Shown: positions 7,997 to 26,825 of the stretch, in pieces
Layout of the letters: the number at the start of each line of letters is the position of its first letter
How positions within the stretch are numbered: the stretch's first letter is position 1
NCBI GenBank assembly: GCA_014189675.1
Contig: DVAE01000014.1
Location: 1 to 28,549, forward strand
DNA from: Candidatus Undinarchaeales archaeon SRR5007147.bin71
GTDB lineage: Archaea > Undinarchaeota > Undinarchaeia > Undinarchaeales > Undinarchaeaceae
DNA length: 28,549 bases
Direction: 5' to 3'
Position numbers and translations under genes: made by a program
The notes under the pieces: model-generated
Databases searched by the model: none
What the model saw: the letters and a program-made list of their open reading frames with translations, nothing else
Told to the model about the DNA's origin: nothing

Positions 7997-8013
7997 CTTT
8001 CCAATGCTCCTAT

Positions 8014-9965: not shown

Positions 9966-9991
9966 AGTGCCTTAAGAAGCTATTCAGAACC

Positions 9992-10001
9992 CTTTATGTA
10001 G
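9992..10001 (-). promoter_or_regulatory. possible TATA box for the aminotransferase-serA-topA operon
   Basis: Read on the minus strand, CTACATAAAG lies about 27-36 bases before the aminotransferase ATG, in the 60-base gap after the ZIP gene. The position is right for an archaeal TATA box; the match is moderate. Confidence 0.35.
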
Positions 10002-10025
10002 TTTTCTATAGCACTTTCTCCATAC

Positions 10026-10769: not shown

Positions 10770-10790
10770 ATTTATTAAATGACAAATTCT

Positions 10791-10802
10791 CCTTATTATA
10801 AG
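10791..10802 (-). promoter_or_regulatory. TATA box for the ZIP transporter gene
   Basis: On the minus strand CTTATAATAAGG is centred about 27 bases before the ZIP ATG, in the 36-base gap after the EamA gene. The spacing fits a leaderless archaeal promoter. Confidence 0.5.
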
Positions 10803-10805
10803 TTT

Positions 10806-11669
10806 CTAGTAGAGGACTATTATAATCGCTCCGGCAAGCATTATTAGTGTTCCTATCAGTCTCCTTGCAATATGCTTTTCGCGGAATACGACTCCTCCAA
10901 ATATTACTGCAAAGAGAACGGCGAGTCTTTTCAAAGATATAACATAAGGAACTATCTGCATCGTCAGTGCAATATTTATTAAAATGGCTGTCAGGGAAAT
11001 CACAAGTCCTGTAGCCAAGACCCATCTCCAAACGTTTTTGTGGCTTTTAATGATACCCTCCTCTCTTGTTTTGGCATAAGCCAAAAATGGAACTGCAGTT
11101 ACTAGGAATATGCTAGCAGAGGAAAGTATAGGATCTGAATTAAGAACTGCAATTTTATTATAATTCGCTGCAATGCTGAAGATAAATGCAACTCCAAGCA
11201 TATCCAACACCCCTTTGTTCCTCAAGATTTGTTTTAGAGGGTAAAGAAGCCCCTTGTGATCTGTGGACATATTTATTACATACGATCCAGAGACAATCAA
11301 AAGTATTCCAATCCCCCCAACATAGCTTGGAAGTTCTCCCAATATCAGGAAGGAAGTGACTATCAGAAAAAGAGGGCTAAATGACAGCATCGGCAAAGAA
11401 AGTGATATATCTGTCGTTTTCAGAGCTCTAAAATAGAGTGCAACTGCAAAAACATTTAGAATTCCTGTTACAAGAACTGAGGGATAGAATTGAGTTCCAA
11501 TCTCTGGTATTCCTTTAACAAGAGATGCAGAAAAGAGTATTGCCGCTCCTGTGAGAAATACTCCACTAGCTATGACGCGAATATCCTCTTTCCGTACAAG
11601 CTTCTTTATCAGTGTATAGTAAAGAGCCTCAAAAAACGCTGAAACTATTGCCAGTACGTACCAATACAT
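10806..11669 (-). CDS. EamA/DMT-family transporter
   Basis: This 287-residue membrane protein has about ten hydrophobic helices in two homologous halves (about 1-135 and 150-287), the arrangement of drug/metabolite transporters of the EamA family. The first half shows the usual FxxALYYTLIKK and the end of each half a pattern close to LGExPxxxxxxGxxLIxxG (LGELPSYVGGIGILLIVSG). The second half ends with REKHIARRLIGTLIMLAGAII. The substrate cannot be deduced; family members export amino acids, metabolites or nucleotide sugars. The ATG lies only four bases after the thrS stop, so the gene is probably read from the thrS transcript. Confidence 0.85.
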   Translation of the reverse strand: MYWYVLAIVSAFFEALYYTLIKKLVRKEDIRVIASGVFLTGAAILFSASLVKGIPEIGTQFYPSVLVTGILNVFAVALYFRALKTTDISLSLPMLSFSPLFLIVTSFLILGELPSYVGGIGILLIVSGSYVINMSTDHKGLLYPLKQILRNKGVLDMLGVAFIFSIAANYNKIAVLNSDPILSSASIFLVTAVPFLAYAKTREEGIIKSHKNVWRWVLATGLVISLTAILINIALTMQIVPYVISLKRLAVLFAVIFGGVVFREKHIARRLIGTLIMLAGAIIIVLY

Positions 11670-11673
11670 TCAA

Positions 11674-13566: not shown

Positions 13567-13587
13567 AATACTGTTTCAGTATCTCCT

Positions 13588-13597
13588 TCTTTTTAAG
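13588..13597 (-). promoter_or_regulatory. possible TATA box for thrS
   Basis: CTTAAAAAGA on the minus strand is centred about 27 bases before the thrS ATG. A ribosome-binding-like GAAGGAGATA lies between them (13577-13586), about 10 bases from the ATG. The two signals suggest either a leaderless or a short-leader transcript, and I cannot decide. Confidence 0.35.
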
Positions 13598-13621
13598 ACT
13601 TGCTAAGCTCTCAGTGCAAAC

Positions 13622-14122
13622 TTAGATTCCCATAAAAGTCTTTCTAATGTGTATTAATTCTTCAAAGTGAACTGCTATTACTTGCGTTCTCAACTTAAAA
13701 ACAAAACACTTCTTTATCAGCTTAGGTCCGATATATTTTCCCTTGAAACTTACCAATTTCCTTTCGTTAAATCTATACACAAGCACCTTCTTGTCAACAT
13801 ATTCTTCAATATAGTTTATTTCTGGCCATCCCAATACAATATATTCAGTTCCTATTGGGAGTTCTTCCCCTCCTGAGTACATCTCCCACCGGGAACCTTT
13901 CCACAATTTATCCATGTCCTTTCCAGGATTTTCTATGAACTCCTCTAATCGCTCTCCCTTCATTTTACGCCATACCCACATTCTTGAAAGCTTGATAAAA
14001 TCATCTCCACACGTTCTAACTACTCCTTTGTGTAATGAGTTCCCTCTCCTAAAAATTATAAAATCACCTATTCTGGGAATTGTTTTGGTGGAATCTATCC
14101 ATGGTAAGAGTTTTTCAGACAT
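13622..14122 (-). CDS. hypothetical basic protein
   Basis: The 166-residue product is not recognised. It is rich in lysine, isoleucine and aromatic residues, contains five tryptophans, and has no signal peptide or membrane helix. A segment near the start (RIGDFIIFRRGNSLHKGVVR, about 17-36) has the beta-strand pattern of small SH3-like or KOW-like barrels, which is only an impression. The region is more A+T-rich than the flanking housekeeping genes. It is transcribed from its own promoter, with no overlap with thrS or the SPFH gene. Recent acquisition is possible but unproven. The coding call rests on the long open frame, the promoter and a plausible protein composition. Confidence 0.7.
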   Translation of the reverse strand: MSEKLLPWIDSTKTIPRIGDFIIFRRGNSLHKGVVRTCGDDFIKLSRMWVWRKMKGERLEEFIENPGKDMDKLWKGSRWEMYSGGEELPIGTEYIVLGWPEINYIEEYVDKKVLVYRFNERKLVSFKGKYIGPKLIKKCFVFKLRTQVIAVHFEELIHIRKTFMGI

Positions 14123-14140
14123 GTCAATACCTATTCTACA

Positions 14141-14149
14141 CTTATACTG
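14141..14149 (-). promoter_or_regulatory. TATA box for the hypothetical gene
   Basis: On the minus strand CAGTATAAG is centred about 23 bases before the ATG at 14122. This suits a leaderless or nearly leaderless transcript. The remainder of the 93-base gap to 14215 is A/T-rich with no other clear signal. Confidence 0.45.
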
Positions 14150-14215
14150 ATTAATAGATAATATAGCTTAAATTAATGTTTATTCAGTACATCTAAAATT
14201 CGTCTAAGCCTTATC

Positions 14216-15049
14216 TTATTTCTGAATCTTCTCTACAAGCTTCTCGATTCCGCTATCTTTTCCACCAAGTCCACTAGACAGCTTCTGTGCCATCTTTGTG
14301 AATTCCATTGGGAAGATTAGCTTGCTTGACCTGCCGTCAGCAACTTCCTTGAGTGTCTGCAAATAAAGATAGTTAAGGGCCGGTTCAGAAAGCTTTCCTG
14401 CTGCAGCCTCTATTGCATTGATTCTTATCTTTGTAGTTTCAGCTTCCTCAGCTGCAGCTTCCTTATATCTCTGTGCTATCTGCTGCGCTTCCATTGCTTC
14501 AAGAACTGCCTCAGGCGGAATAACGCTAATAAGTTCAACTTCAATTATCTCAATTCCCCAGCCTCCAGTCAACTCCTGTATTTCATTCTTTAGCTGAGAG
14601 TTTATCTTGTCTATATTTCCATATACATCTTCTAGTTCATTGTTTCCAACAACGTTTCTTATTCTACCTTTCAGATGCTCCTCTATAGCCTTTCTATAAT
14701 CTTCCTCAACTTCTAGCTCTGCCTTTGCCGGATCTGAAACCCTAAGGTACATTATGGCATCTATCAAAACTTTTATCCTGTCTTTTGTAATTACCTGCTG
14801 AGGAGGTATATCGATGGACTCAGTCCTCATATCATATTTTACAAAACTCTCTATAATTGGAAGAATAAAGTTCCAGCCAGGTTTTGCAATTCTGTTGTAT
14901 TTTCCAAATCTGAACACAACGGCTCTCTCATATTCCTTAAACTCGAAAAGTATGCTGTTAAGAACAGAGCCTCCTGGTGCAGCCATTACAATCAACAATA
15001 GTATTAGTACAATTCCAATGGGTATTCCTATCAACATCCAAACTGCCAT
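14216..15049 (-). CDS. SPFH/band 7 (stomatin-like) membrane protein
   Basis: SPFH proteins form large membrane-anchored ring assemblies that organise membrane patches and often work with proteases. The 277-residue protein has one N-terminal membrane helix (about 5-25) followed by the SPFH domain. Family-typical elements are the EYERAVVFRFGKYNRIAKPGWNF segment (about 39-61), the DIPPQQVITKDRIKVLIDAIMYLRV strand region, and GIEIIEVELISVIPPEAVLEAMEAQ leading into the alanine/glutamate-rich coiled coil (about 185-225). The partner NfeD protease gene commonly adjacent to such genes is not seen here. The start is supported by a ribosome binding site five bases upstream and a TATA box at 15087-15095. 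Confidence 0.9.
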   Translation of the reverse strand: MAVWMLIGIPIGIVLILLLIVMAAPGGSVLNSILFEFKEYERAVVFRFGKYNRIAKPGWNFILPIIESFVKYDMRTESIDIPPQQVITKDRIKVLIDAIMYLRVSDPAKAELEVEEDYRKAIEEHLKGRIRNVVGNNELEDVYGNIDKINSQLKNEIQELTGGWGIEIIEVELISVIPPEAVLEAMEAQQIAQRYKEAAAEEAETTKIRINAIEAAAGKLSEPALNYLYLQTLKEVADGRSSKLIFPMEFTKMAQKLSSGLGGKDSGIEKLVEKIQK

Positions 15050-15053
15050 CTTA

Positions 15054-15061
15054 CTCCCTTT
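15054..15061 (-). promoter_or_regulatory. ribosome binding site of the SPFH gene
   Basis: AAAGGGAG on the minus strand ends four bases before the SPFH ATG. With the TATA box at 15087-15095, it predicts a short leader of about 15 bases, unlike the leaderless neighbours. Confidence 0.5.
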
Positions 15062-15086
15062 TCACTACTCTTCAGTGAGTAATGTT

Positions 15087-15095
15087 GTATATAAG
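15087..15095 (-). promoter_or_regulatory. TATA box of the SPFH gene
   Basis: CTTATATAC on the minus strand lies in the gap after the exported-protein gene, about 42 bases before the SPFH ATG. The expected transcription start would be near 15064, just upstream of the ribosome binding site. Confidence 0.5.
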
Positions 15096-15108
15096 TCTTA
15101 TTCCTTTC

Positions 15109-15936
15109 TTACAGCCAGTCAAAAAGTCCGCTGAGCTTCTCCTTCATCTTCTCAAATAAGCCCTTTACTTGTTTCTTGGTCTCTTCTTCAGTAGCTTCCT
15201 TTGCAAGTTCTTCTACCTTTGTCGAAACTTTATCTGCAATTTCAGTAAGTTTGCTATTTTCCTGTGTTACTTCCTCAGACTGCTTCCACTTAATCAAAAT
15301 TTCTGAGAAAGAATTCTCATCAAGCCCATTGCATATAACAGTTTCTCCTGATACAAGGCAGTTGTCTGGTTGCGCATTTGTTATGACAGTTCCCTTTGGA
15401 ACCTTCATCGAATAGCTTATCGTTCCTATTCCAAGATCAAAACTTTCTATTGTGTTCCTTACGCTAATTCCTGTAATATTTCCAATAAGATCAGAAGGCT
15501 GTGCCTGCAATTTTCCGTCATCTGCCTTGGAAACTATTGCTCCTGTCTCGAACGAAAGGTTTAGAATATAATTTGTTTCGTAGCTTGTCATTTCCAGACT
15601 CTTCCTGAAAACAAGTCCCAGTTCTGAGCTACTGAGGCCTTTATCAATCTCGTAATCGCTTGGTATCGTGTCTGTTGTCAGCTCCCCATACCTATCTTTC
15701 AGAATAAGGTTTCCTATATCTCTCGTTCCGTAATGTATGCTCGCTCTTGTTAGCTGTCCTTCATCAGAAGCTCCTGCAGAGCATTTGAAGTTATACACAA
15801 TGTCTACAAAAAGCCTGTTAGTATATTCACTGCTTATTCCAATACTTTCAACAGAACATCGTTCATCAAGAGCTGCGTAGGCCTGTCCTGATAAAATAAC
15901 TGTGCAAATTAAAATTCCAAGAAAGATCCGCTTCAT
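15109..15936 (-). CDS. exported protein of unknown function
   Basis: The 275-residue protein begins with a clear Sec signal peptide (KRIFLGILICTVILSGQAYA, cleavage probably near residue 21). The mature part has four cysteines (27, 52, 193, 202) that could form two disulfides, alternating beta-strand-like segments, and two N-glycosylation sequons (N126-L-S and N153-I-T). The C-terminal 55 residues (from about 221) are strongly charged and helical, like a coiled coil, ending in an amphipathic Phe/Trp/Leu segment (GLFEKMKEKLSGLFDWL). No catalytic motif or named family is recognised. It is divergently transcribed from the nonulosonate operon across a shared regulatory region, so coordinated control is possible. 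A role as a glycosylated surface protein is speculation. Confidence 0.8.
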   Translation of the reverse strand: MKRIFLGILICTVILSGQAYAALDERCSVESIGISSEYTNRLFVDIVYNFKCSAGASDEGQLTRASIHYGTRDIGNLILKDRYGELTTDTIPSDYEIDKGLSSSELGLVFRKSLEMTSYETNYILNLSFETGAIVSKADDGKLQAQPSDLIGNITGISVRNTIESFDLGIGTISYSMKVPKGTVITNAQPDNCLVSGETVICNGLDENSFSEILIKWKQSEEVTQENSKLTEIADKVSTKVEELAKEATEEETKKQVKGLFEKMKEKLSGLFDWL

Positions 15937-15957
15937 ATATGATTTGTCTCGTTTCTA

Positions 15958-15968
15958 CTATATATAAA
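15958..15968 (-). promoter_or_regulatory. TATA box of the exported-protein gene
   Basis: TTTATATATAG on the minus strand is centred about 27 bases before the ATG at 15936. This is a near-ideal archaeal TATA box for a leaderless transcript. Confidence 0.6.
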
Positions 15969-15985
15969 TTGACTGAGCCACAAAA

Positions 15986-16095
15986 TTTAAGATATATTTA
16001 AGCATTTATCTTAAAATTTAAGACATCGCTCTTAAATTTTCTACTTTTATCTTAATATTTCCAAAGATTTATATACTACTATAGTGTTTTTAAGA
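15986..16095. promoter_or_regulatory. operator-like array of TTTAAGA half-sites
   Basis: Between the two divergent TATA boxes lies an A/T-rich stretch with repeated TTTAAGA or its complement TCTTAAA. Sites are at 15986-15992, 15997-16003 (last base C), 16009-16015, 16017-16023, 16030-16036, 16050-16056 (last base T) and 16089-16095. The pair at 16009-16023 forms a perfect inverted repeat with 7-base arms around one central A. Several spacings are near 11-13 bases, about one helical turn. The downstream gene encodes an Lrp/AsnC regulator, a family that often binds several spaced A/T-rich sites near its own promoter, so autoregulation is likely. The last site lies just before the lrp ATG, consistent with repression. 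Confidence 0.6.
16068..16076 (+). promoter_or_regulatory. TATA box of the lrp-nonulosonate operon
   Basis: TTTATATAC is centred 27 bases before ATG 16099. This supports a leaderless start there and argues against the GTG at 16084, which would lie upstream of the expected transcription start. Confidence 0.6.
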
Positions 16096-16098
16096 GTT

Positions 16099-16590
16099 AT
16101 GACTAAACTTGACAAGAAGAACTGCATAATCCTCAACATGCTGCAGGAAAATTGCAGAGTCTCTCTCACAGACATGGCGAAGAGAGTCGGCCTTTCGGTG
16201 GACTCTGTAAAAAAGAGGGTCAAAAAAATGGAAAATTCAAAAATATTTTATCCAAGAGTTCAGATAAGGCCACGTCATTTTGGTTTCGAGAATATTGTGG
16301 ATGTAAAAATAAAGCTTCACAATTACACTGATGAAGACCTAAACTCTTTTGTAAAGTTCTTAAAAGAGAATCAACAGGTTCCTGAAGTCTTCCTCGTCTC
16401 AGGGGAATGGGACGTCTCCATAGTCATTATGGCTAAAAATTCTGAGGATCTCGGGGAGCTGACTTCATCTATCAGAAAGCGTTTTGGCAATATAATCAGG
16501 GAGTGGTCAGAATCCCTTACAACCATCGCTCATAAGTTCGAGACCTACGATATGCTCGAGCTAATGGGACACAGGAGTGGAAAAGAGTAA
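16099..16590 (+). CDS. Lrp/AsnC-family transcriptional regulator
   Basis: This 163-residue protein has an N-terminal winged helix-turn-helix (about 3-50, KLDKKNCIILNMLQENCRVS then LTDMAKRVGLSVDSVKKRVKKM). A C-terminal RAM/Lrp ligand-binding domain (about 68-150) follows, with VFLVSGEWDVSIVIMAKNSEDL as its core. Both fit the Lrp/AsnC family, which assembles into dimers or octamers and often senses small molecules. ATG 16099 is chosen because the TATA box is 27 bases upstream. Its stop shares one base with the ATG of the Gfo/Idh gene (TAATG), making it the first gene of the nonulosonate operon. It is the obvious candidate to bind the repeats at 15986-16095. The ligand is unknown; a sugar or amino acid linked to the pathway is inference. 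Confidence 0.9.
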   Translation: MTKLDKKNCIILNMLQENCRVSLTDMAKRVGLSVDSVKKRVKKMENSKIFYPRVQIRPRHFGFENIVDVKIKLHNYTDEDLNSFVKFLKENQQVPEVFLVSGEWDVSIVIMAKNSEDLGELTSSIRKRFGNIIREWSESLTTIAHKFETYDMLELMGHRSGKE

Positions 16591-17525
16591 TGAAAGTGAT
16601 GTTTTTCGGACTTGGTTCAATAGGCGAGAGGCACGCCCGCCTTCTAATAGACAATTTTGAGCACGAGCTCTATGCTTTTAGGTCAGGCAAAAGCTCCGGA
16701 AAAAACAGTCTTGGTATTGAAGAAGTTCACACTCTAGAAGAAATTGAAAAAATCAGTCCAGATATTGCCTTCATTACAAATCCGACAAATCTCCATATAT
16801 CCACTGCAGTCCAGTGCGCCGGTCAGGGAATTAGTCTCTTTGTAGAGAAGCCACTTTCTCACAGCGAAGATGGAGTTCAGAACCTTATGGATGCAGTAAA
16901 ATCAAATGATGTTTCTCTTTACATAGCATATTGCATGCGTTTTCATCCTGTCATCAAATGGCTCAAGGAACATCTAAAAACCAACAGAGCAATCCACGCC
17001 ACAGTAAGAGTTTCTTCCTACCTTCCAAACTGGCGTGAGGGCCTTGACCACCTGACTCACTACAGTGCAATAAAAGACTCTGGGGGTGGCGTTCTCCTGG
17101 AGCTTTCACATGAGATTGACTACCTTTACTACCTCTTCGGAACTCCAACTATAATTGAAGCGGTTTCATCAAAAGCTGGCAGAGTAACTACAGACTCCGA
17201 GGACTTTGCAGACATACTCCTAAGTTTCGGCGGAAATCTTAATTGCAATTTGCATATGAACTTCCTCAGCAGGCTTAACAGGCGTGAGATGATTCTTGAT
17301 TTTGAGGATCACACTGTTGTAGCCGATCTTGCAGAAAGCAAGGTAACAATCCTGACTGACGAAGACGAGAAAGTCAGCGAGCTTCCTTTCGAACGGGACG
17401 ATATGTATCTGGAACAACTGAATTATTTCTTTGATAATATAGGAAAACCCGGAATGATGAACGGTCCTGATGAAGCTCCCAAAGTTCTGAACGTTCTTAT
17501 GGAAATAAAGGAGGCTGCAAAATGA
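16590..17525 (+). CDS. Gfo/Idh/MocA-family oxidoreductase (PtmF-like)
   Basis: The 311-residue protein has an N-terminal NAD(P)-binding fold with GLGSIGERHAR (7-17) and the family motif EKP (86-88, lysine 87 catalytic). The C-terminal substrate domain carries GGVLLELSHEIDYLYYLFG with H174. In nonulosonate gene clusters such an enzyme often sits directly before the CMP-sugar synthetase and an SDR protein, the order seen here; in Campylobacter the corresponding ptm genes take part in legionaminic acid production. Its exact reaction cannot be read from sequence. A ribosome-binding AGGAGTGG (within 16571-16580) precedes the ATG, which overlaps the lrp stop. It overlaps the next gene by four bases. 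Confidence 0.87.
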   Translation: MKVMFFGLGSIGERHARLLIDNFEHELYAFRSGKSSGKNSLGIEEVHTLEEIEKISPDIAFITNPTNLHISTAVQCAGQGISLFVEKPLSHSEDGVQNLMDAVKSNDVSLYIAYCMRFHPVIKWLKEHLKTNRAIHATVRVSSYLPNWREGLDHLTHYSAIKDSGGGVLLELSHEIDYLYYLFGTPTIIEAVSSKAGRVTTDSEDFADILLSFGGNLNCNLHMNFLSRLNRREMILDFEDHTVVADLAESKVTILTDEDEKVSELPFERDDMYLEQLNYFFDNIGKPGMMNGPDEAPKVLNVLMEIKEAAK

Positions 17526-18229
17526 TACTTCTCACAATCTGCGCCCGCGGAGGCTCCAAAGGCGTGAAAAACAAAAACATTCGCGAGATCGCAGGCAAAC
17601 CTCTTATTGCGCATACAATAAAAGTTGCAAAAGACTGGGGTAAGGCTGATAGGATTGTCTGCTCTACAGACTCTGAAGAGATTGCAAAAGTAGCCAGGGA
17701 TGCAGGAGCTGAAGTTCCGTTTATGAGACCTTCTGAGCTTGCAACAGATGAGTCAAGTAAAATGGATGTTATAAGACACGCTGTTTATGAAGCAGAAAAA
17801 AAGTATGGGGAAAACTACAACACAATTGTAGATCTTGATGTGACAAGTCCGATAAGGACTGTTGAAGATTTAGAGGGATGTCTCAAAATATTCCAGGAAA
17901 AAGATCTTGATTCTGTATTCTCTGTTACAAATGCTAGAAAAAGTCCTTATTTTAATGTGGTCGAGCTTAATGATGAGGGCTACGCACACCTGTCAAAGGA
18001 GCCACTATCCCCAATTGTCAGGAGGCAGGACGCTCCCGAGGTTTACGATATGAATGCATCAATTTACTTTTACAAAAAGGAATTTCTGATGAAGCCTGAA
18101 ACAGAGGCTCCAATGTCAGACAAATCAGCAATCTATGTGATGGATGATATCTCATCTGCAGAAATAGACTCTGAACTTGACTTGGCATTTCTCGAATTCC
18201 TGATTGAAAAAGGAGAGGTATCATTATGA
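17522..18229 (+). CDS. CMP-nonulosonic acid synthetase (NeuA/LegF-like)
   Basis: This 235-residue enzyme transfers CMP from CTP to a nine-carbon keto-sugar acid, activating it for glycosyltransfer. The nucleotide-binding start ICARGGSKGVKNKN (6-19) and GKPLIAHTI (25-33) are diagnostic. The middle has TSPIRTVEDL (108-117), and RRQDAPEVYDMNASIYFY (167-184) resembles the RRQ-x-x-P-x-x-Y-x-x-N-G-A-x-Y segment of CMP-legionaminate and CMP-sialate synthetases. The acidic end DDISSAEIDSELDL (208-221) fits the metal site. A strong ribosome binding site AAAGGAGG (17507-17514) precedes the ATG. Whether the natural substrate is legionaminate, pseudaminate or sialate cannot be settled from sequence; the legionaminate type is favoured by context. 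Confidence 0.9.
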   Translation: MILLTICARGGSKGVKNKNIREIAGKPLIAHTIKVAKDWGKADRIVCSTDSEEIAKVARDAGAEVPFMRPSELATDESSKMDVIRHAVYEAEKKYGENYNTIVDLDVTSPIRTVEDLEGCLKIFQEKDLDSVFSVTNARKSPYFNVVELNDEGYAHLSKEPLSPIVRRQDAPEVYDMNASIYFYKKEFLMKPETEAPMSDKSAIYVMDDISSAEIDSELDLAFLEFLIEKGEVSL

Positions 18230-19005
18230 CAGATTATATGAAAAAATTTAGTCTAAAGGGAAAAACTGCTGCAGTCTTCGGAGGTCTTGGTCTAATCGGC
18301 AAGGAAATAGTATCCGCTCTTGGACAGGCTGGGGCGAAAGTTCTTCTCATAGATATTGATGAGGAAAAAGGACGTAAAATTGCGTCAGAACTTGGTGCAG
18401 AGTTCATAGAGCTGGATATAACTGATATAGCAAGCTACGACGAAAAAATTTCTGCTATTTGGAAAGAACAGGGACAGGTTGATATTGTTGTAAATACTGC
18501 ATACCCAAGAACTGAAGACTGGGGCGACAAGTTCGAGGATGTAAAATCAGAATCATGGCGAAAAAATGTCGACATGCAGATGAATTCCTACTGTCTTCTC
18601 ACAATAAAATTTGCTGAGCTAATGAAGAAGAACGAAATAAAAGGCAGCATAATCAACTTGGGCTCAACTTATGGAGTCCTTGGCGCAGACTTTGAAATAT
18701 ACAAGGGAACTGACCTTAGCTGTCCTCCTGCCTACGCTGCGATAAAAGGCGGAATCATAAATTTCTCGAGGCACGCAGCTTCCTATTACGGAAAATACGG
18801 AATCCGCGTTAACGCATTATGCCCCGGAGGAATTTTTGACAATCAAAATCCTGAGTTCGTAAAAGCTTACGAAAGCAAAACATCCCTGAAAAGGATGGGG
18901 AATCCGGAGGAAATTGCATCAGCCGCGGTCTTCCTGGCTTCCGACGCTTCTTCATATGTAACTGGAACTGCCTTCATGGTAGATGGAGGTTGGACTAGCA
19001 TATGA
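18226..19005 (+). CDS. short-chain dehydrogenase/reductase (PtmA-like)
   Basis: A 259-residue classical SDR. It has the cofactor motif GGLGLIGKE (about 19-27), an acidic residue after the second strand (LLIDIDEEKG) that favours NAD, NTAYP in place of the usual NNAG, the catalytic serine in INLGSTYG, and the YAAIKGG pair (YxxxK). ALCPGG and SYVTGTAFMVDGGW complete the fold. It follows the CMP-sugar synthetase with an ATGA overlap, in the same place as PtmA-type proteins of legionaminic acid loci. Its substrate is unknown; a hexosamine- or nonulosonate-linked redox step is inferred. A ribosome-binding AGGAGAG (18211-18217) supports ATG 18226 over the Met at codon 5. Confidence 0.87.
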   Translation: MTDYMKKFSLKGKTAAVFGGLGLIGKEIVSALGQAGAKVLLIDIDEEKGRKIASELGAEFIELDITDIASYDEKISAIWKEQGQVDIVVNTAYPRTEDWGDKFEDVKSESWRKNVDMQMNSYCLLTIKFAELMKKNEIKGSIINLGSTYGVLGADFEIYKGTDLSCPPAYAAIKGGIINFSRHAASYYGKYGIRVNALCPGGIFDNQNPEFVKAYESKTSLKRMGNPEEIASAAVFLASDASSYVTGTAFMVDGGWTSI

Positions 19006-19769
19006 GCAAGAAGGCAAGAGTAATCGCAAGACTTGATGTAAAAGGTCCTAATGTGATAAAGGGCGTTCAGCTTGAGTGCCTCCGAGTAGTTGGAAAACCA
19101 GGAGAGATGGCCGAAAAATATTATTTACAGGGTTCTGACGAGCTCATTTACGTCGATATAGTTGCCAGCCTTTACGGCCGAGATAACCTTCTTGACATAG
19201 TTGACAAGGCATCTGATAAAATTTTTATTCCATTCACAGTCGGCGGAGGCGTCAGGACTCTTGATGACATTCGGGAGTTTCTAAAAGCTGGAGCAGACAA
19301 AGTGGCAATCAATACAGCGATAACAAAAGACCCTGAGCTCATAAGTAAAGGAGCCAGAATGTTTGGTTCCCAGTGTATAGTTGCTTCAATAGAAGCTAGA
19401 AATATTGGGGATGGTAAGTGGGAAGCTCTCACGGACAATGGTCGGGAAACAACCGGTCTTGATGTTATAGAGTGGGCAAAAAAAGTTGAGGAGCTTGGAG
19501 CAGGAGAAATCCTTCTCACCTCTGTTGACAAGGAAGGAACTCAGAAAGGTCTTGATACTGATCTTGTCCGAAGTGTTACTGACGAAGTATCTATTCCCGT
19601 CATCGCCTGTGGAGGAGCTGGAAGTTCCGAGGACCTTCTTGACTGCGTCAGAAAAGGAAATACTGACTCGGTTGCAGTCTCATCAATTTTACATTTTAAC
19701 AAGGTAACAATCCCTGATATAAAGTCAACACTGAACAGTGGCGGAATCGAGGTGAGGAATCTTGACTGA
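19002..19769 (+). CDS. HisF2-type acetamidino-modification cyclase homologue
   Basis: This 255-residue TIM barrel resembles the HisF cyclase of histidine synthesis but belongs to the sugar-modification branch. Features of that branch are RLDVKGPNVIKGVQLECLRVVG near the N-terminus, YVDIVASLYGRDN, the glutamate in VASIEAR where histidine HisF has aspartate, and TDNGRETTGLDVIEWAKKVEELGAGEILLTSVDKEGT. With HisH and a PseA-like amidotransferase, such proteins convert an N-acetyl group to an acetamidino group using ammonia from glutamine; HisF2 is thought to channel or position the ammonia. The following hisH and amidotransferase genes complete the module, and no other histidine gene is nearby. It overlaps its neighbours on both sides. 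Confidence 0.88.
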   Translation: MSKKARVIARLDVKGPNVIKGVQLECLRVVGKPGEMAEKYYLQGSDELIYVDIVASLYGRDNLLDIVDKASDKIFIPFTVGGGVRTLDDIREFLKAGADKVAINTAITKDPELISKGARMFGSQCIVASIEARNIGDGKWEALTDNGRETTGLDVIEWAKKVEELGAGEILLTSVDKEGTQKGLDTDLVRSVTDEVSIPVIACGGAGSSEDLLDCVRKGNTDSVAVSSILHFNKVTIPDIKSTLNSGGIEVRNLD

Positions 19770-20442
19770 AGCTGACATTACTATAATTGACTATGGTCTC
19801 AACAACCTGAAAAGTGTTTCAAAAGGTTTTGAAAAGATAGGACGAAGTTCTAAAGTCGTTGATACTCCTGAAGAAGTCCTTTCTGCAAAGTGCCTGGTTC
19901 TTCCCGGAATAGGCGCATTTGAGGACGGAATGAATGGTCTGAAGAAAAGAGGCCTCATCGATCCAATCACTCAAAAGGTCTCTGAAGGAACTCCTTTTCT
20001 CGGAATTTGCCTCGGAATGCAGATGCTCTTCACAGAAAGCGAGGAGTTCGGACTTCACAAAGGTCTTGATTTGATAAAGGGTCGAGTCATCGCGTTCAAA
20101 GCACCTGAAGAACTTAATATTGACTGGTATAAAGTTCCTCATATGGGCTGGAATGAGATAATCACTCCTACTGGTTCTACTTGGGATGGCAGTTTCCTTG
20201 AAGAAACAAAAGAAGAGACAAACCTTTATTTCGTTCACTCTTTCTATCCAGTTCCTGAGGATAAAAGAGTGATTCTGGCTACTACTGAGCACGGAAAGCA
20301 GGTTTTTGCTTCTATTGTTCAAAAAGGAAGTGTTGTTGGAACACAGTTTCATCCTGAAAAGAGTGGAGAGCTCGGTCTCTCACTGCTAGAATCTTTCTGC
20401 GATATAAACAATATAGGGAAGGAGGAAGAGAAAAATGAGTGA
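19762..20442 (+). CDS. HisH-type glutamine amidotransferase subunit
   Basis: A 226-residue class I glutaminase with the HisH fold: DYGLNNLKSV near the start, LPGIGAFEDGM (47-57), the nucleophile C83 in GICLGMQMLF, YKVPHMGWNEI typical of HisH, and the triad partners H197 and E199 in TQFHPEKS. It should release ammonia from glutamine for the neighbouring HisF2 and amidotransferase. The start is TTG at 19762; an in-frame stop at 19753-19755 excludes any earlier start, and GAGGTGAGG just upstream is a good ribosome binding site. It overlaps hisF2 by eight bases and the amidotransferase by eight. Participation in histidine synthesis cannot be excluded, but the neighbours point to sugar amidination. 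Confidence 0.9.
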   Translation: MTEADITIIDYGLNNLKSVSKGFEKIGRSSKVVDTPEEVLSAKCLVLPGIGAFEDGMNGLKKRGLIDPITQKVSEGTPFLGICLGMQMLFTESEEFGLHKGLDLIKGRVIAFKAPEELNIDWYKVPHMGWNEIITPTGSTWDGSFLEETKEETNLYFVHSFYPVPEDKRVILATTEHGKQVFASIVQKGSVVGTQFHPEKSGELGLSLLESFCDINNIGKEEEKNE

Positions 20443-21664
20443 AAATCTAGAGGCCTATTTCGGTCTTCCAAATGAAGTTAAATTCTGTACGAGGTGTGTC
20501 ATTTCAAACCAGAGACCCAATTCCTCAGTTGAATTCAAACACACAAAAGAGTCAAAGAAAAAAACAATTAATTTCGACAGCGAGGGTGTCTGCGACGCAT
20601 GCAGGCATGCAGAAAACAAATACAACAAAATAGACTGGACAAAGCGCGAAGAGGAGCTTTATACACTTCTTGACAAATACAGAAAGACTGATGGTTCTTA
20701 TGATATTCTTGTTCCTGGAAGTGGGGGGAAGGACAGTGTTTACGCTTCTCACATTCTGAAATACAAATACGATATGCACCCACTGACTATAACTTGGGCT
20801 CCACATCTCTACACAAATTATGGCTGGGATAATTTCCAGGGATGGATTCACAAGGGAGGTCTTGACAATATGCTTTTCACTCCAAATGGAAAGATACACA
20901 GACTTCTTACAAGGCAGGCTTTCAAAAACTTACTACACCCTTTCCAGCCCTTTATATTCGGCCAGAAGAATTTGGCTCCAAAAATTGCTGAAAAGTTCGA
21001 TATTCCACTTGTATTCTATGGCGAGAATGAGGCTGAATACGGAAATCCAATACAAGATACCTCAACAGCAGAAAGAGACTGGAGGTACTTCGCTTCTAAC
21101 GATCTCGAAAGCACCTATCTTGGAGGGACAAGCATTCAGGACCTTATTGAAAAACACGGTGTAACTATGAATGATTTGGACATCTATATGCCAGCTGATC
21201 CTAAGATGGTGGAGAAGAAGCAAATAAAAGTTCACTATCTTGGCTACTATCTAAAGTGGATTCCTCAGGACAATTACTATTATTCTGTTGAAAATACAGG
21301 CTTCAAGCCAAACGATCAAAGGACTGAGGGAACTTACTCGAAATACAACAGTATAGATGATAAAACAGATCCATATCATTACTGGACCACTCTTATAAAA
21401 TTCGGAATTGGCAGAACGACTTATGACGCGTCTCAAGAAATAAGAAACAATCACATAAACCGTGACGAAGGTGTCGCCCTAGTCAAGAGATTTGACACTG
21501 AATTTCCTAAGAGATATTTCACGGAATTTCTTGACTACATAAGCATGACTGAGGAAGAGTTCTGGAAAACAGCCGACAAATTCAGGTCTCCCCACATTTG
21601 GAAGAAGGAAAACGGGGACTGGAAGCTCAGGCACACCGTTTGGAATGGAGGTACTGACGACTAG
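20435..21664 (+). CDS. N-acetyl sugar amidotransferase (PseA/WbuX-like)
   Basis: This 409-residue enzyme belongs to the PP-loop ATP pyrophosphatase family that activates an N-acetyl group of a sugar and replaces the oxygen with ammonia, giving an acetamidino group. Visible are two N-terminal CxxC pairs (C18/C21 in CTRCVISNQRP and C53/C56 in CDACRHAE), probably zinc-binding, and the ATP loop VPGSGGKDSVY (93-103). Conserved segments include NPIQDTSTAERDW and HYLGYYLKWIPQDNYYYS. Length matches the family. A strong ribosome binding site GGAAGGAGG lies before ATG 20435, inside hisH. With HisF2 and HisH it forms a complete amidination module. The product may be an acetamidino-legionaminate or a related sugar. 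Confidence 0.9.
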   Translation: MSENLEAYFGLPNEVKFCTRCVISNQRPNSSVEFKHTKESKKKTINFDSEGVCDACRHAENKYNKIDWTKREEELYTLLDKYRKTDGSYDILVPGSGGKDSVYASHILKYKYDMHPLTITWAPHLYTNYGWDNFQGWIHKGGLDNMLFTPNGKIHRLLTRQAFKNLLHPFQPFIFGQKNLAPKIAEKFDIPLVFYGENEAEYGNPIQDTSTAERDWRYFASNDLESTYLGGTSIQDLIEKHGVTMNDLDIYMPADPKMVEKKQIKVHYLGYYLKWIPQDNYYYSVENTGFKPNDQRTEGTYSKYNSIDDKTDPYHYWTTLIKFGIGRTTYDASQEIRNNHINRDEGVALVKRFDTEFPKRYFTEFLDYISMTEEEFWKTADKFRSPHIWKKENGDWKLRHTVWNGGTDD

Positions 21665-22785
21665 TGATAAAAATCAGAGATCGTGAACTTGGAGGAGATA
21701 AGCCCGTCTACATAATAGCAGAAGCAGGGGTCAATCACAACGGAAGTATTGAACTTGCAAAGAAGCTCGTCGACGTAGCCTCGGAACTTGGTGCAGATGC
21801 TGTTAAATTCCAGACTTTCAGGGCGGACTTAATTGTTACTGAAGACTCTGAAAAAGCAGAGTACCAGAAAAAAGACTCGGATGTAACTCATTTCAACATG
21901 CTTAGAAATCTTGAGCTCTCAGATGAGAATTTCAAAGAGCTGAAAGATTATTGCAATACTAAGAAAGTGGAATTTTTGTCAACTCCTCATTCAGGGAAAT
22001 GGAGCGTCAATCTTCTTGAAGGGCTTGGTATTTCTGCATACAAAATCGGATCCGGAGATCTCACAAATATCCCTATACTCAAATATATCGCTAAACTTGG
22101 AAAGCCTGTCATAATTTCAACAGGAATGGCAACAATGGACGAGATACAAGAGGCCAAGGAGACAATAAATTCAGAAGGTAATGATAATTTAATTGTACTC
22201 CATTGTACCACAATGTACCCCTGTCCTGAAGAAAAGGTCAACCTGAGGGCTATGCAGACAATTCTGGACAAGACAGAGAACCTAGTCGGCTATTCGGACC
22301 ATACACAGTCTATAGAGGCCTCAATAATTGCAACCTGTCTTGGAGCTTCTCTTATAGAAAAACACTTTACACTTGACCAGGATATGCCTGGTCCTGACCA
22401 TGAATCTTCAATTGAGCCGGATGAGCTGGAAAATCTTATAAGAGCTGTCCGTTTTGTTCGGAAAAATAATATAAGCAATCCTTCTGAGGCCTTTGAGGTT
22501 CTGAACAGCCAAGGCTATTCTCTGGATTCAAGTTTAATTGAAACAATTCTTGGAAGTCCTGAGAAGCTTCCGGATGAAAAGGAGCTGGAAATAGCCAAGG
22601 TTTCAAGAAAAAGTATAGTCGCAACTAAATACATAAAGGCCGGAGATGAGATCACAGAAAAAAATATTGGGATTCTTAGGCCAGGTGAGGGGCTTCATCC
22701 GCGACACTTCTCTGAAATTATTGGAAAGCACACAGTTCGAAACATACAAAAAAATGACTATGTTCTCCTGGAGGATGTAAAATGA
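21664..22785 (+). CDS. nonulosonic acid synthase (NeuB/LegI family)
   Basis: NeuB-family synthases condense a six-carbon amino sugar with phosphoenolpyruvate to make the nine-carbon acid. The 373-residue protein has the TIM barrel with IIAEAGVNHNG (17-27), DAVKFQTFRAD (45-55), YKIGSGDLTN (126-135), HCTTMYPCPEEKVNLRAM (180-197), GYSDHT (209-214) and EKHFTLD (232-238). It ends in the SAF (antifreeze-like) domain, about 315-373, that lids the partner active site in the dimer. A linker of about 40 residues (270-310) between the domains looks longer than usual. The start is GTG 21664, sharing a base with the preceding TAG. Motifs do not separate sialate from legionaminate synthase. Confidence 0.93.
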   Translation: MIKIRDRELGGDKPVYIIAEAGVNHNGSIELAKKLVDVASELGADAVKFQTFRADLIVTEDSEKAEYQKKDSDVTHFNMLRNLELSDENFKELKDYCNTKKVEFLSTPHSGKWSVNLLEGLGISAYKIGSGDLTNIPILKYIAKLGKPVIISTGMATMDEIQEAKETINSEGNDNLIVLHCTTMYPCPEEKVNLRAMQTILDKTENLVGYSDHTQSIEASIIATCLGASLIEKHFTLDQDMPGPDHESSIEPDELENLIRAVRFVRKNNISNPSEAFEVLNSQGYSLDSSLIETILGSPEKLPDEKELEIAKVSRKSIVATKYIKAGDEITEKNIGILRPGEGLHPRHFSEIIGKHTVRNIQKNDYVLLEDVK

Positions 22786-23915
22786 GAAAAATACTTTATG
22801 TCACTGGAAGCCGGGCAGAATACGGTCTTATGCAGTCAACACTTAAATTGATTGACAATGATTCCGCTCTTGACCTCCATATAGTGGCAACTGGAATGCA
22901 CCTTATGCCTGAGTTCGGAAACACCATCACTGAGGTAGAGCACGACGGTTTCACTCTTCACAAAATTGATTCAATTTATTCAGAAGACAGCAAGGAAGCA
23001 ATGGCCCGCTTTGCCGGTGACTTTCTACTGAAATTTGCGGATGTTCTTAAAGAGATAAATCCTGATTTGATTCTTCTTCTTGGGGACAGAGCTGAGATGC
23101 TCTCAGCCGCAGTTGCAGGAGCTTATATGTCAATTCCTGTGGCTCATATTCACGGAGGCGAAGTAAGTTCAACAGTGGATGAAATGGCAAGGCATGCCAT
23201 AACGAAACTTTCTGAAATTCATTTCGCTGCAACAGAATCAAGCGCTGAGAGAATACGGAAGATGGGGGAAATTCCTTCAAACATATATGTTGTCGGAGCT
23301 CCAGGACTGGATTCAATACTTAATGATACTCTTCCTTCAAAAGAAGAAGTTTTCAAGAGTCTTGGACTGAATTCTTCTGAAAAAACAGTTCTCATTGTCC
23401 AGCACCCAATTACTCTTGAGGATGGAAAATCCGAAGAGCATATGAGAGCTATTCTTGAAGTTGTAAAAGAGGAAGGACTTCAATCTGTTATAGTTTATCC
23501 AAACGCTGATGCTGGTGGAAGAGAAATAATAAATGTCATTGAAGAATATAAAGATACATTCAATATTTTCAAAAGTATGGAGAGGCCCCTTTTCCTTAGT
23601 ATTATGAAACACTCAGACGCAATCATAGGAAATTCCAGTTCTGCCATCATAGAGGCGCCTTCATTTGGAATTCCTGCTGTCAATATAGGCTCTCGCCAGA
23701 ATGGCCGCGAGCGGGCTGATAACCTAATAGATTCAGGATACAAAAAAGAGGAAGTCCTTTCTGCAATTAAGAAAGCATTTTCTCCTGAGTTTATAGAGAA
23801 AGCAAAAATGTGCAAAAATCCCTATGGTGATGGAAAAGCTATGGAGCGCATAGTAAAAATACTAAAAGAGGTGAAGCTTGGAAGGGAACTTCTTGACAAG
23901 AAGATAGCGTACTGA
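22782..23915 (+). CDS. hydrolysing UDP-sugar 2-epimerase (NeuC/LegG-like)
   Basis: This enzyme removes the nucleotide and inverts C2 of a UDP- or GDP-amino sugar, giving the free 2-acetamido hexose used by the NeuB-type synthase. The 377-residue protein has the GT-B-like fold of the family with VTGSRAEYGLM (7-17), LLGDRAEML (99-107), AHIHGGE (121-127), ATESSAERI (150-158), VGAPGLDS (171-178) and GNSSSAIIEAPSFG in the C-terminal domain. The synthase and epimerase overlap by an ATGA, as is common for neuB/neuC pairs. Which nucleotide sugar it uses (GlcNAc or a 2,4-diamino-6-deoxy sugar) is not evident; the nearby aminotransferase and acyltransferase favour the diamino sugar. Confidence 0.92.
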   Translation: MRKILYVTGSRAEYGLMQSTLKLIDNDSALDLHIVATGMHLMPEFGNTITEVEHDGFTLHKIDSIYSEDSKEAMARFAGDFLLKFADVLKEINPDLILLLGDRAEMLSAAVAGAYMSIPVAHIHGGEVSSTVDEMARHAITKLSEIHFAATESSAERIRKMGEIPSNIYVVGAPGLDSILNDTLPSKEEVFKSLGLNSSEKTVLIVQHPITLEDGKSEEHMRAILEVVKEEGLQSVIVYPNADAGGREIINVIEEYKDTFNIFKSMERPLFLSIMKHSDAIIGNSSSAIIEAPSFGIPAVNIGSRQNGRERADNLIDSGYKKEEVLSAIKKAFSPEFIEKAKMCKNPYGDGKAMERIVKILKEVKLGRELLDKKIAY

Positions 23916-24313
23916 TGGAAAATGATGACAGGTTTGATGAATGGAAGCCTCCTGAGATAAAGGACGGAGAGCTTACAAAATGGAATTGGATGGTTCAGAA
24001 TGTAGAGGGTCTAAAACTTGGGAAGAATACAGACATAGGAGCTTTCACCTACATAAATGCAAAACACGGTGTTGAAATACAGGACAAAGTTCAGATTGGT
24101 TCACATTGCTCAATCTATTCAGAATCTACAATAGACGAAAAATCCGGCAAAGTTACAATAGGAGAAAACGCCAGAATAGGCTCTCACAGCCTGATAATGC
24201 CTGGCGTTACAATTGGAAAAAATGCAGTAATCGGAGCGTTTTCTTTTGTTACAAGTGATGTGCCTGAGAACTCTATTGCATACGGAATTCCTGCAAAAGT
24301 GGTGAAGAAATAA
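23915..24313 (+). CDS. short left-handed beta-helix acyltransferase
   Basis: A 132-residue protein made largely of hexapeptide repeats, seen as a run of [I/V]-G-x-x-[A/S/T]-x units from LKLGKNTDIGAFTYI to KNAVIGAFSFVTSDVP. It ends in the usual VPENSIAYGIPAKVVKK. This fold acetylates amino or hydroxyl groups of sugars as a trimer. It lacks the N-terminal Rossmann domain present in PglD/LegH-like N-acetyltransferases and is therefore short. A tryptophan-rich N-terminus (DEWKPPEIKDG, TKWNWMVQN) may form a lid. Position between the epimerase and aminotransferase genes suggests that it acylates the amino group installed by the aminotransferase; O-acetylation of the finished sugar is the alternative. 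The ATG shares one base with the neuC-type stop. Confidence 0.87.
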   Translation: MENDDRFDEWKPPEIKDGELTKWNWMVQNVEGLKLGKNTDIGAFTYINAKHGVEIQDKVQIGSHCSIYSESTIDEKSGKVTIGENARIGSHSLIMPGVTIGKNAVIGAFSFVTSDVPENSIAYGIPAKVVKK

Positions 24314-25450
24314 ATGAAAGTTCCCTTATTCAAGACTTATTGGAATCAGGAAGACATAGATTCAGTGAAAACAGTAATAGAGCGAGGAACATATTGGGCA
24401 ACCGGTCCTGAAATTGAAGAATTTGAGAAAAAAATTGCTGAGTTCGTTGGATCAAAGTATTGCCTGGCTTTCAACTCAGGAACTTCAGCTCTACACACAC
24501 TCTTACTTGCTCATGGTGTAAAGGAAAAAGAAGTCATAGTTCCGTCTTTCACATTCATTGCCACAGCAAACGCAGTCGTACTCGCTGGAGGAATTCCGGT
24601 TTTCGCAGAGTCAGAATCAGAAACCTACGGTCTTGACGCAGAGGATGTAGAATCAAGAATTACAGAGAAAACTGCTGCCATATTGAATCTGGACTTTGGA
24701 GGATTCCCTGCAAGAGACCACGAAAAGCTCAGAGAAATCGCAGACCGTCATAATATTCTCTACATTGGCGATTCAGCTGAGTCTCTCGGTTCTAGTATCA
24801 GCGGAAAAATGCTCGGCTCCATTGCAGACTCAACAATTTTCAGTTTCTGCCAAAATAAGGTAATCAGCACAGGAGAGGGAGGAGTTATCGTTACAAACAA
24901 TGAATCTGTTTACGAAAAAGCAAAGCTCATAAGGTCTCACGGACGTGTGGAACTTGCGGATGATTACTTTTCTAGCACAGAGGACAATGATTACATTCAA
25001 ATTGGCTATAATTACAGAATGCCGACAATGTGCGCTGCTCTTGGTCTTTCCCAGATGAATAAAATTTCTGAAAATATTAAAATGAGGAGGACAAATGCCG
25101 AACATCTTAATCTTGGTCTTGGAAAAATCAAGCAGGTAAAGACTCCGGTACTTATTGAGGGACATCTCCAGGTTTATCAGATGTATACCATCCAGCTCAA
25201 TGACAAAAGTACAAGGGACTCACTTCAGAATCACTTAACTAAAAATGGAATCAACACAAAAGTATATTTCAATCCTGTCCATCTCAAAACAGTTTACAAA
25301 AACATGGGGTGTTCAGAAGGAGACCTTCCTAAAACTGAGGAGCTCTCTGGAAAAGTTCTGACTCTTCCAATGTATCCATCTCTTACTGAGGCTGAAATTG
25401 ATCATATAATAAATTATGTGGAGGAGTTTTTTAACAATGCCGAAGCTTGA
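24314..25450 (+). CDS. DegT/DnrJ/EryC1/StrS-family sugar aminotransferase
   Basis: These PLP enzymes transfer an amino group from glutamate to a keto-sugar nucleotide, typically at C4. The 378-residue protein has GTYWATGPEIEEFE near the start, FNSGTSALH (53-61) for the phosphate, PSFTFIATANAV (77-88), the cofactor aspartate D153 in IGDSAESLGS, and the Schiff-base lysine K182 in FSFCQNKVISTGEGG. The C-terminal part (YNYRMPTMCAALGLSQM) is typical. It begins directly at the end of the acyltransferase gene and overlaps the next gene by 14 bases. In legionaminate-type routes this would be the 4-aminotransferase, but the required 4-keto sugar must come from a dehydratase not evident here. Substrate and regiochemistry are unproven. 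Confidence 0.9.
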   Translation: MKVPLFKTYWNQEDIDSVKTVIERGTYWATGPEIEEFEKKIAEFVGSKYCLAFNSGTSALHTLLLAHGVKEKEVIVPSFTFIATANAVVLAGGIPVFAESESETYGLDAEDVESRITEKTAAILNLDFGGFPARDHEKLREIADRHNILYIGDSAESLGSSISGKMLGSIADSTIFSFCQNKVISTGEGGVIVTNNESVYEKAKLIRSHGRVELADDYFSSTEDNDYIQIGYNYRMPTMCAALGLSQMNKISENIKMRRTNAEHLNLGLGKIKQVKTPVLIEGHLQVYQMYTIQLNDKSTRDSLQNHLTKNGINTKVYFNPVHLKTVYKNMGCSEGDLPKTEELSGKVLTLPMYPSLTEAEIDHIINYVEEFFNNAEA

Positions 25451-26825
25451 GGACATGCTAATAAACCAGTCAACTTCCATTAAAGAAGCAATGTCTGCCA
25501 TAGATAGAGCAGGAATAAGAATGGCTCTCATCGTTGACGATAATCAGAAGCTTAAGGGAATAGTTACTGACGGAGATATACGTAGAGGAATCATCAAAGG
25601 AGCCGGAAATGATGACCTTGTTTCAACTGTTATGAATGATGCCCCTCTTATTGCCGAAGAGAATCTACCCCATCAGGACATTCTGGACTTGCTCAAGACA
25701 AACAAAGTTCTTGGAATTCCACTTCTTTCAGAAAGCGGAAAAGTCCTCGATATGCTCCTTCTGGAGGGCAACGATGTTCTCTCATACACAAAACATACCA
25801 TTGAAAAGAAGCATCTCAAGAAAATACTGGTAATCGGTGGAGCAGGATACATTGGCTCCGTTCTTGTCAAAAAGCTCCTTGACAAGGGCTACAAGGTAAA
25901 AGTCCTCGACAATTTCTTATACGGAAACGAGTCCCTATCTTCAATAGACTCTGATGAGCTTAGCCTCCTCGAAGGGGATACTCGGCACATAGAGGATGTT
26001 ACTGAAGCCGTCCAGGATGTTGACGCAGTGGTGCACCTTGCTGAGCTTGTAGGGGATCCTGCATCAAGTCTAGATCCAAAACTCACTCAGGATATTAACT
26101 ATCTTGCAACACGCAACGTTTCCTCTGTCTGCAAACACTTCCATCTTAACAGGTTTGTTTATGCCTCATCTTGCAGTGTCTACGGGGAATCTGAAGAAGG
26201 AAATCTGCTTACAGAAGAATCTCCTCTCAATCCAGTTTCTCTTTATGCAAAAATGAAGATAGCTGCTGAGAAAGCTCTTGTTGAAATGAAGGATGACAGC
26301 TTCAGACCGACAATCTTGAGGCTTGGAACTGTCTTTGGTCCCTCTCCTCGTCCCAGATTTGACCTTGTCGTTAATCTTCTCACAGCAAAGGCTGTAAGAG
26401 ACGGCAAAATAACAATTTTCGGAGGCGATCAGTGGAGACCTAATGTCCATGTTGAAGACGTAGCTGAAACTATTATTTCTGTCCTGGAAGCTCCTTTAGA
26501 TAAGGTCGGGGGGGAAGTATTCAATGTCGGTTCAGAGGAAAACAACCATACCATAAACGAACTTGGGGGACTTATTAAAAATCAAGTTCCTTCTTCTGAA
26601 CTTGTAATAGAGGAAAAAGATATTGATAAAAGGGATTACAAGGTTGACTTCACAAAACTCAGAGAAGGTCTTGGAATCAAACTTCAGAGAACTGTAAATG
26701 ACGGAATCGCCGGAATAATTTCTTTTCTAGAAAGCCACAAAGACTTCAACTACGAGGATTCAAATTACAGCAATGTCAAATTCCTTGAACAGGGAAAGCT
26801 TACAGAATTCTTTTCTAAGGGCTAG
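25437..26825 (+). CDS. CBS-pair fused to NAD-dependent epimerase-type extended SDR
   Basis: The 462-residue protein joins two CBS domains (about 1-120) to an extended SDR (about 127-430). The CBS part (MPKLEDMLINQSTSIKEAMS then VTDGDIRRGIIKG) looks like the N-terminus of PtmE-type sugar nucleotidyltransferases of legionaminate loci. Instead of the nucleotidyltransferase there is a Rossmann domain with GGAGYIG (134-140), SSCSVYG (244-250) and the catalytic pair Y270/K274. The Asp-Glu pair of 4,6-dehydratases (T-D-E-V-Y-G) is replaced by Cys-Ser, so epimerase or reductase chemistry is favoured. HLAELVGDPAS is a subgroup signature. ATG 25437, after a GTGGAGGAG ribosome binding site, is preferred over the upstream in-frame start at 25416. 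CBS domains suggest control by adenine nucleotides. Confidence 0.88.
   Translation: MPKLEDMLINQSTSIKEAMSAIDRAGIRMALIVDDNQKLKGIVTDGDIRRGIIKGAGNDDLVSTVMNDAPLIAEENLPHQDILDLLKTNKVLGIPLLSESGKVLDMLLLEGNDVLSYTKHTIEKKHLKKILVIGGAGYIGSVLVKKLLDKGYKVKVLDNFLYGNESLSSIDSDELSLLEGDTRHIEDVTEAVQDVDAVVHLAELVGDPASSLDPKLTQDINYLATRNVSSVCKHFHLNRFVYASSCSVYGESEEGNLLTEESPLNPVSLYAKMKIAAEKALVEMKDDSFRPTILRLGTVFGPSPRPRFDLVVNLLTAKAVRDGKITIFGGDQWRPNVHVEDVAETIISVLEAPLDKVGGEVFNVGSEENNHTINELGGLIKNQVPSSELVIEEKDIDKRDYKVDFTKLREGLGIKLQRTVNDGIAGIISFLESHKDFNYEDSNYSNVKFLEQGKLTEFFSKG

Follow-up and report, generated by a model that had tools for sequence, protein, structure and literature searches.

An Lrp/AsnC-type regulator linked to nonulosonic acid operons in two archaeal phyla, and its candidate operator

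Archaeal Lrp/AsnC regulators that act locally, such as LrpA, LysM and Sa-Lrp, are short single-domain regulators that combine an AsnC HTH with a RAM domain, and AT-rich palindromic sites are found at their own promoters. Many archaeal Lrps are global, one example being Sa-Lrp of Sulfolobus, which is glutamine-responsive (PMC3584215). Operons for legionaminic acid, described from Campylobacter and Plesiomonas (ptm-leg) and from Halorubrum sp. PV6, hold NeuA, NeuB and NeuC together with an aminotransferase, an acyltransferase and PtmA/PtmF-like genes. In the WbuX/WbuY/WbuZ (WbpG-HisH-HisF) module three proteins stand in a row, and the same row is found in Sulfurospirillum-type nonulosonic acid (NulO) clusters (L050, L056, L072). 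The local-regulator, legionaminic operon and Wbu module features are all shared by the locus described here. In the open-access literature we found work on archaeal legionaminic acid and on archaeal Lrp regulators and nothing joining both, and no reported transcriptional regulator of archaeal sialic-acid-like sugars. To our knowledge, no earlier concrete candidate exists for the control of these sugars in archaea. Our analysis of sequences and gene neighborhoods points to a dedicated, autoregulating and ligand-gated local Lrp that would control the NulO operon as one unit, a reading to which we give a probability of roughly 0.8.

The Lrp-led operon and its putative product

The window, a stretch of 28,549 nucleotides from Candidatus Undinarchaeales archaeon SRR5007147.bin71, contains twelve ORFs between positions 16099 and 26825, all of them open and all on the plus strand (Table 1). 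Successive genes overlap by 1, 4, 4, 4, 8, 8, 1, 4, 1, 0 (abutting) and 14 bases, the last value applying with 25437 as the start of the CBS-SDR gene. This start was preferred over 25416 because the alignment with the Woesearchaeota homologue begins there. The initial annotation had read the region as a twelve-gene NulO operon led by Lrp, with junctions that abut or overlap by 1-14 bases, and had named a synthase, an epimerase, a CMP-synthetase, an aminotransferase, an acyltransferase and an amidination module; the ORF check bore out the layout, and Pfam and NCBIfam profiles the assignments. The NulO core genes are all present (TIGR03569 and TIGR03568 over cut-off for the NeuB-type synthase and the hydrolysing 2-epimerase, PF02348 for the CMP-synthetase), and the amidination module is complete, with WbuX and HisH over and HisF/WbuZ slightly under cut-off. 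A role of HisF and HisH in histidine biosynthesis was ruled out: besides the operon HisF, the His_biosynth profile found no second strong PF00977 (HisF/HisA) protein in the 83%-complete genome, which indicates that the pair serves amidination.

The window genome is a 624-kb draft, its phylum was sampled with six genomes, and all genomes in the comparison are draft MAGs. Gene order and flanks of the twelve-gene operon are kept in two further species of the genus, and identity across the three species is 93-97% for Lrp and 80-98% for the pathway proteins. NeuB is also present in other families of the phylum, but those NeuB loci are without this lrp. In one of the two further species (G004, locus L010) wbuX and degT were each recovered in two tblastn pieces, possibly due to sequencing errors in the draft genome. 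The overlaps, the conservation and the single TATA box ahead of lrp suggest that all twelve genes are transcribed together.

Table 1. Coordinates of the operon genes and of the promoter elements and candidate operator sites ahead of lrp, as positions in the window.
Feature	Position	Strand	Evidence or remark
TATA box of divergent gene 15109-15936 (ATTTATATA on minus strand)	15961-15969	-	invariant in 3 species
Candidate operator half-site TTTAAGA (outer)	15986-15992	+	kept in 3 species
Main candidate operator, perfect palindrome TCTTAAAATTTAAGA	16009-16023		once per genome, upstream of lrp
Candidate operator half-site TCTTAAA	16030-16036	-	kept in 3 species
Candidate operator half-site, dyad centre -42, directly upstream of BRE/TATA	16050-16056	-	same -42 in most related lrp promoters
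TATA box of lrp operon (TTTATATA), 31 bases before ATG	16068-16075	+	invariant in 3 species
Candidate operator half-site TTTAAGA, dyad centre -11, at expected transcription start	16089-16095	+	kept in 3 species
lrp: Lrp/AsnC-type regulator, 163 aa, NulO-linked clade	16099-16590	+	PF13404 44 bits (AsnC HTH), PF01037 32 bits (RAM domain), both over cut-off; tree clade 99/98
Gfo/Idh/MocA oxidoreductase, PtmF-like position	16590-17525	+	PF01408; UDP-GlcNAc 3-dehydrogenase model weak, far under cut-off
CMP-NulO synthetase (NeuA/LegF/PseF family)	17522-18229	+	PF02348; top NCBIfam model PseF, under cut-off
SDR oxidoreductase, PtmA-like	18226-19005	+	NF006619 and FlagModPtmA, both under cut-off
HisF/WbuZ-type synthase, amidination module	19002-19769	+	TIGR00735 and TIGR03572, both slightly under cut-off; PF00977
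HisH-type glutaminase, amidination module	19762-20442	+	TIGR01855 204 bits, cut-off 105
WbuX-type N-acetyl sugar amidotransferase	20435-21664	+	TIGR03573 385 bits, cut-off 203
NulO synthase (NeuB/NnaB/LegI) with SAF domain	21664-22785	+	TIGR03569 408 bits, cut-off 400; PF03102, PF08666
Hydrolysing 2-epimerase (NeuC/NnaA/LegG)	22782-23915	+	TIGR03568 444 bits, cut-off 236
Hexapeptide N-acyltransferase, LegH-like, short	23915-24313	+	NeuD family and others, under cut-off
DegT/PseC/LegC-family sugar aminotransferase	24314-25450	+	PseC 285 and LegC 233 bits, under cut-offs
CBS domain fused to SDR sugar-nucleotide epimerase/dehydrogenase	25437-26825	+	PF00571 and PF01370; motif SSCSVYG

The co-occurrence of NeuA, NeuB, NeuC, LegC-like, LegH-like, PtmA-like and PtmF-like genes, a set also found in Plesiomonas and Campylobacterota clusters, would agree with standard legionaminic acid made by a Campylobacter-type GDP pathway. 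We regard this as possible but doubtful. The operon is without the guanylyltransferase PtmE, and the single PF00483 protein of the genome is encoded elsewhere. Furthermore, the last gene does not look like a 4,6-dehydratase: its motif is SSCSVYG compared to STSEVYG, STDEVYG or STDKA in 4,6-dehydratases, so that the acid/lysine is missing, and sister loci carry an STDKA-type dehydratase in the slot held by the CBS-SDR of the window. The best solved relative of its SDR half is PDB 6vo6, which we take to be Cj1427 and which likewise has no 4,6-dehydratase acid. An assignment of the CBS-SDR as LegB was unsupported, with a mismatched motif and 95 bits for the LegB model compared to a cut-off of 475. 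No canonical LegB or other 4,6-dehydratase was recognised among the PF01370 matches of the 83%-complete genome, and for these reasons the product may be something other than legionaminic acid. Judging from the gene content, the most fitting name for it is legionaminic-like or sialic-acid-like NulO, probably amidinated, and a 9-hydroxy NulO is possible.

A clade of NulO-linked Lrps with exchangeable tailoring genes

A contig scan with the synthase as query revealed a Ca. Woesearchaeota contig (L045) with a NulO operon that opens with an Lrp sharing 59% identity with that of the window and that ends in the same pair of aminotransferase and CBS-SDR (64 and 61% identity). A profile search for Lrp in 371 genomes of the Woesearchaeota-containing phylum yielded relatives in 37 genomes, which part by score into 13 with at least 187 bits and a remainder with at most 154. 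NulO genes adjoin lrp in all 13 high-scoring copies and, within the flanks covered, in none of the 27 sister Lrps (Fisher 8e-11). The sister genes whose neighbors were examined adjoin unrelated genes; in the window genus lrp stands next to NulO genes in three of three species. The 16 NulO-linked Lrps form one clade in a maximum-likelihood tree (support 99/98). Twelve of the 13 loci have lrp and the NulO genes co-directional on one strand, and in ten lrp is directly followed by a NulO or amidination gene. The exception in orientation is L160, where the NulO cluster is convergent to lrp and wbuX is divergent. Among 394 archaeal genomes sampled across the domain, no clade members were found outside these two groups.

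The association also holds when read from the side of the genomes, since a strong NeuB was found in 13 of 13 genomes with a clade lrp compared to 53 of the 358 others (Fisher 6e-11). These 53, out of 66 genomes with a strong NeuB in the phylum, have NulO clusters without the clade Lrp, which therefore appears to be an add-on and not a requirement. NeuC-type clusters are moderately enriched with the clade Lrp (10/14 compared to 10/40 loci, p 0.003) and tailoring modules weakly (9/14 compared to 12/40 loci, p 0.03). An oddity of a single genus is ruled out by the Woesearchaeota locus together with the search of its phylum, and the description of an Lrp-led NulO operon as unusual in the initial annotation has to be qualified accordingly, as the arrangement recurs in two archaeal phyla. 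The comparison of gene order in related archaea that it had suggested turned out in its favor, with the operon in two more species and linkage in 13 of 13 second-phylum genomes. A regulator unlinked from the sugar genes in relatives, which it had named as evidence to the contrary, was not seen among true orthologues, and many NulO clusters lack the regulator.

Around the constant core of lrp and NulO genes the tailoring genes vary. Amidination genes lie downstream of lrp in the window genus and in L156, L157 and L164. In L155 and L160 they are divergent and upstream of lrp, and the shared operator region could control both directions. Three Lrp-led NulO operons (L045, positions 6523-19925, L159 and L165) carry a PIG-L deacetylase, a formyltransferase and one-carbon genes instead of amidination genes; FTHF cycloligase, FolD and GlyA are present in two of these three. 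A formylated archaeal NulO is not far-fetched, since N-formyl-legionaminic acid is known by experiment in Halorubrum (PMC6137143). That amidination is exchanged for formylation while the regulator stays the same points to a cassette logic in NulO tailoring. In L164 (G086) Lrp and the HisH glutaminase form one uninterrupted in-frame ORF of 377 codons. Further operon genes are also fused in the L164 MAG, in L157 and in L159.

Promoter architecture and proposed mode of control

The lrp promoter region is conserved in the three species of the genus, where both divergent TATA boxes and most of the TTTAAGA-type half-sites are kept and the spacers vary. The position of the TATA box at 15961-15969 fits a leaderless start at 15936 for the divergent gene, and a leaderless transcript is likewise predicted for the lrp operon. 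The divergent gene (minus strand) is conserved in the genus, has a signal-peptide-like start and is without NCBIfam match; it shares the operator region and may be co-regulated. Counted from the ATG, related lrp promoters repeatedly show dyads centred at about -73, -42 and -11, and their TATA box is at about -31; most have the box at -30 to -32 and a dyad at -10 to -13. The main palindrome of the window lrp is centred at -83.

The perfect palindrome TCTTAAAWTTTAAGA occurs in 10 copies in 630 kb of loci, every one upstream of a clade lrp, compared to an expectation of 0.0 from shuffled sequences, and was absent from 684 kb of sequence surrounding 40 NeuB loci that lack the clade Lrp and served as controls. 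In ten genomes (G000, G004, G005 and 7 of the 13 from the Woesearchaeota-containing phylum) it is found exactly once per genome and always upstream of the clade lrp. Four of these 13 lrp promoters have imperfect palindromes only (L155, L160, L162, L163), and in two (L164, L166) no convincing palindrome was found. One locus carries a compensated palindrome, GCTTAAATTTTAAGC. A palindromic site at its own promoter is what would be expected of an autoregulating Lrp/AsnC protein. The wide reach of many archaeal Lrps, Sa-Lrp included, might suggest a general amino-acid (feast/famine) regulator with the NulO operon as one of many targets, but this is very unlikely given a perfect operator that stands once per genome and always at lrp; moreover, the window genome encodes a second, distant Lrp that could do the global job.

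The ladder of dyads at -42 and -11 was found in 8 of 14 independent loci compared to 0.22 in shuffles. It is also present in 5 of 27 promoters of sister Lrps without NulO linkage, and autoregulation therefore appears to be older than the link to NulO genes. Such a ladder in sister Lrps might be taken to mean that the clade Lrp autoregulates itself only and was carried along in operon transfer, the NulO genes being read through without meaningful input; the many NulO clusters of the phylum that lack it and the convergent NulO genes of L160 would agree with this. We consider it unlikely, since the link is kept among Lrps that have diverged to 46-61% identity and in spite of changes in gene order and tailoring genes, one Lrp is fused in frame to HisH, and linkage is complete in the clade and absent in the sisters.

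A dedicated local regulator could act as follows. Lrp would bind an operator array in which the TATA box is enclosed between dyads at about -42 and -11 and a stronger palindrome lies upstream; an Lrp oligomer would wrap the promoter and autoregulate the whole transcript, and a small molecule in the RAM domain would set the switch. The output of the operon would be a sialic-acid-like sugar, CMP-activated and probably amidinated, that is destined for surface glycans, with the CBS domain probably adding allosteric control at the enzyme level. We think autorepression likelier than activation because sites lie to either side of the TATA box and cover the expected start. The strongest palindrome of most loci is found ahead of BRE/TATA, around -72 to -94, and a Ptr2-like activator bound there might recruit TBP or RNA polymerase at high levels of its ligand. 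Activation of this kind is a tentative alternative, as the second and third sites surround the TATA box and extend over the expected start, and in L160 and L163 the best palindrome is at the start region.

The initial annotation had proposed that surface-sugar synthesis is tied to a metabolite sensed by Lrp. The regulatory link gained support from the linkage in 13 of 13 genomes, the single clade and the genome-unique palindrome; the identity of the metabolite and the direction of control we infer. Our leading guess for the ligand is glutamine, since it feeds HisH as nitrogen donor in the amidination module, since Lrp is fused to HisH in one relative (L164) and since Sa-Lrp responds to glutamine (PMC3584215). 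The formylation-type operons with the same Lrp use no glutamine in tailoring, which weakens a glutamine-only reading. More speculatively, the clade Lrp might be a pathway-specific NulO sensor of small-genome archaea that reads the tailoring donor metabolite (glutamine where the sugar is amidinated, one-carbon amino acids where it is formylated) or the sugar itself, so that surface charge would be set by nutrient supply, and the lrp-operator-NulO cassette might have been transferred between phyla as a whole, its tailoring modules being exchangeable.

Comparison with described systems

The clade Lrp and its one-per-genome operator represent a directly testable switch. Together they provide a sequence marker with which further NulO operons can be sought, and an entry point to the timing of surface decoration in small, probably host-dependent archaea. 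Compared to LrpA, LysM and Sa-Lrp, the target of the window Lrp would be a NulO operon, with a perfect site once per genome, and its clade is distinct, with a QxRPR linker and a C-terminal KFExYD motif. Unlike the legionaminic operons of Campylobacter, Plesiomonas and Halorubrum sp. PV6, the window operon is led by Lrp, lacks PtmE and a canonical LegB, and has its CBS domain fused to an SDR and not to a nucleotidyltransferase. The Wbu module is here placed inside an Lrp-led archaeal operon, with a deacetylase-formyltransferase pair and one-carbon genes in its stead in relatives. The CBS-SDR differs from the Cj1427-like SDR (6vo6) by its N-terminal CBS domain and its place within a NulO operon. 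Local regulation by Lrp is of a known kind, whereas the clade, the operator and the target are, as far as we could find, new.
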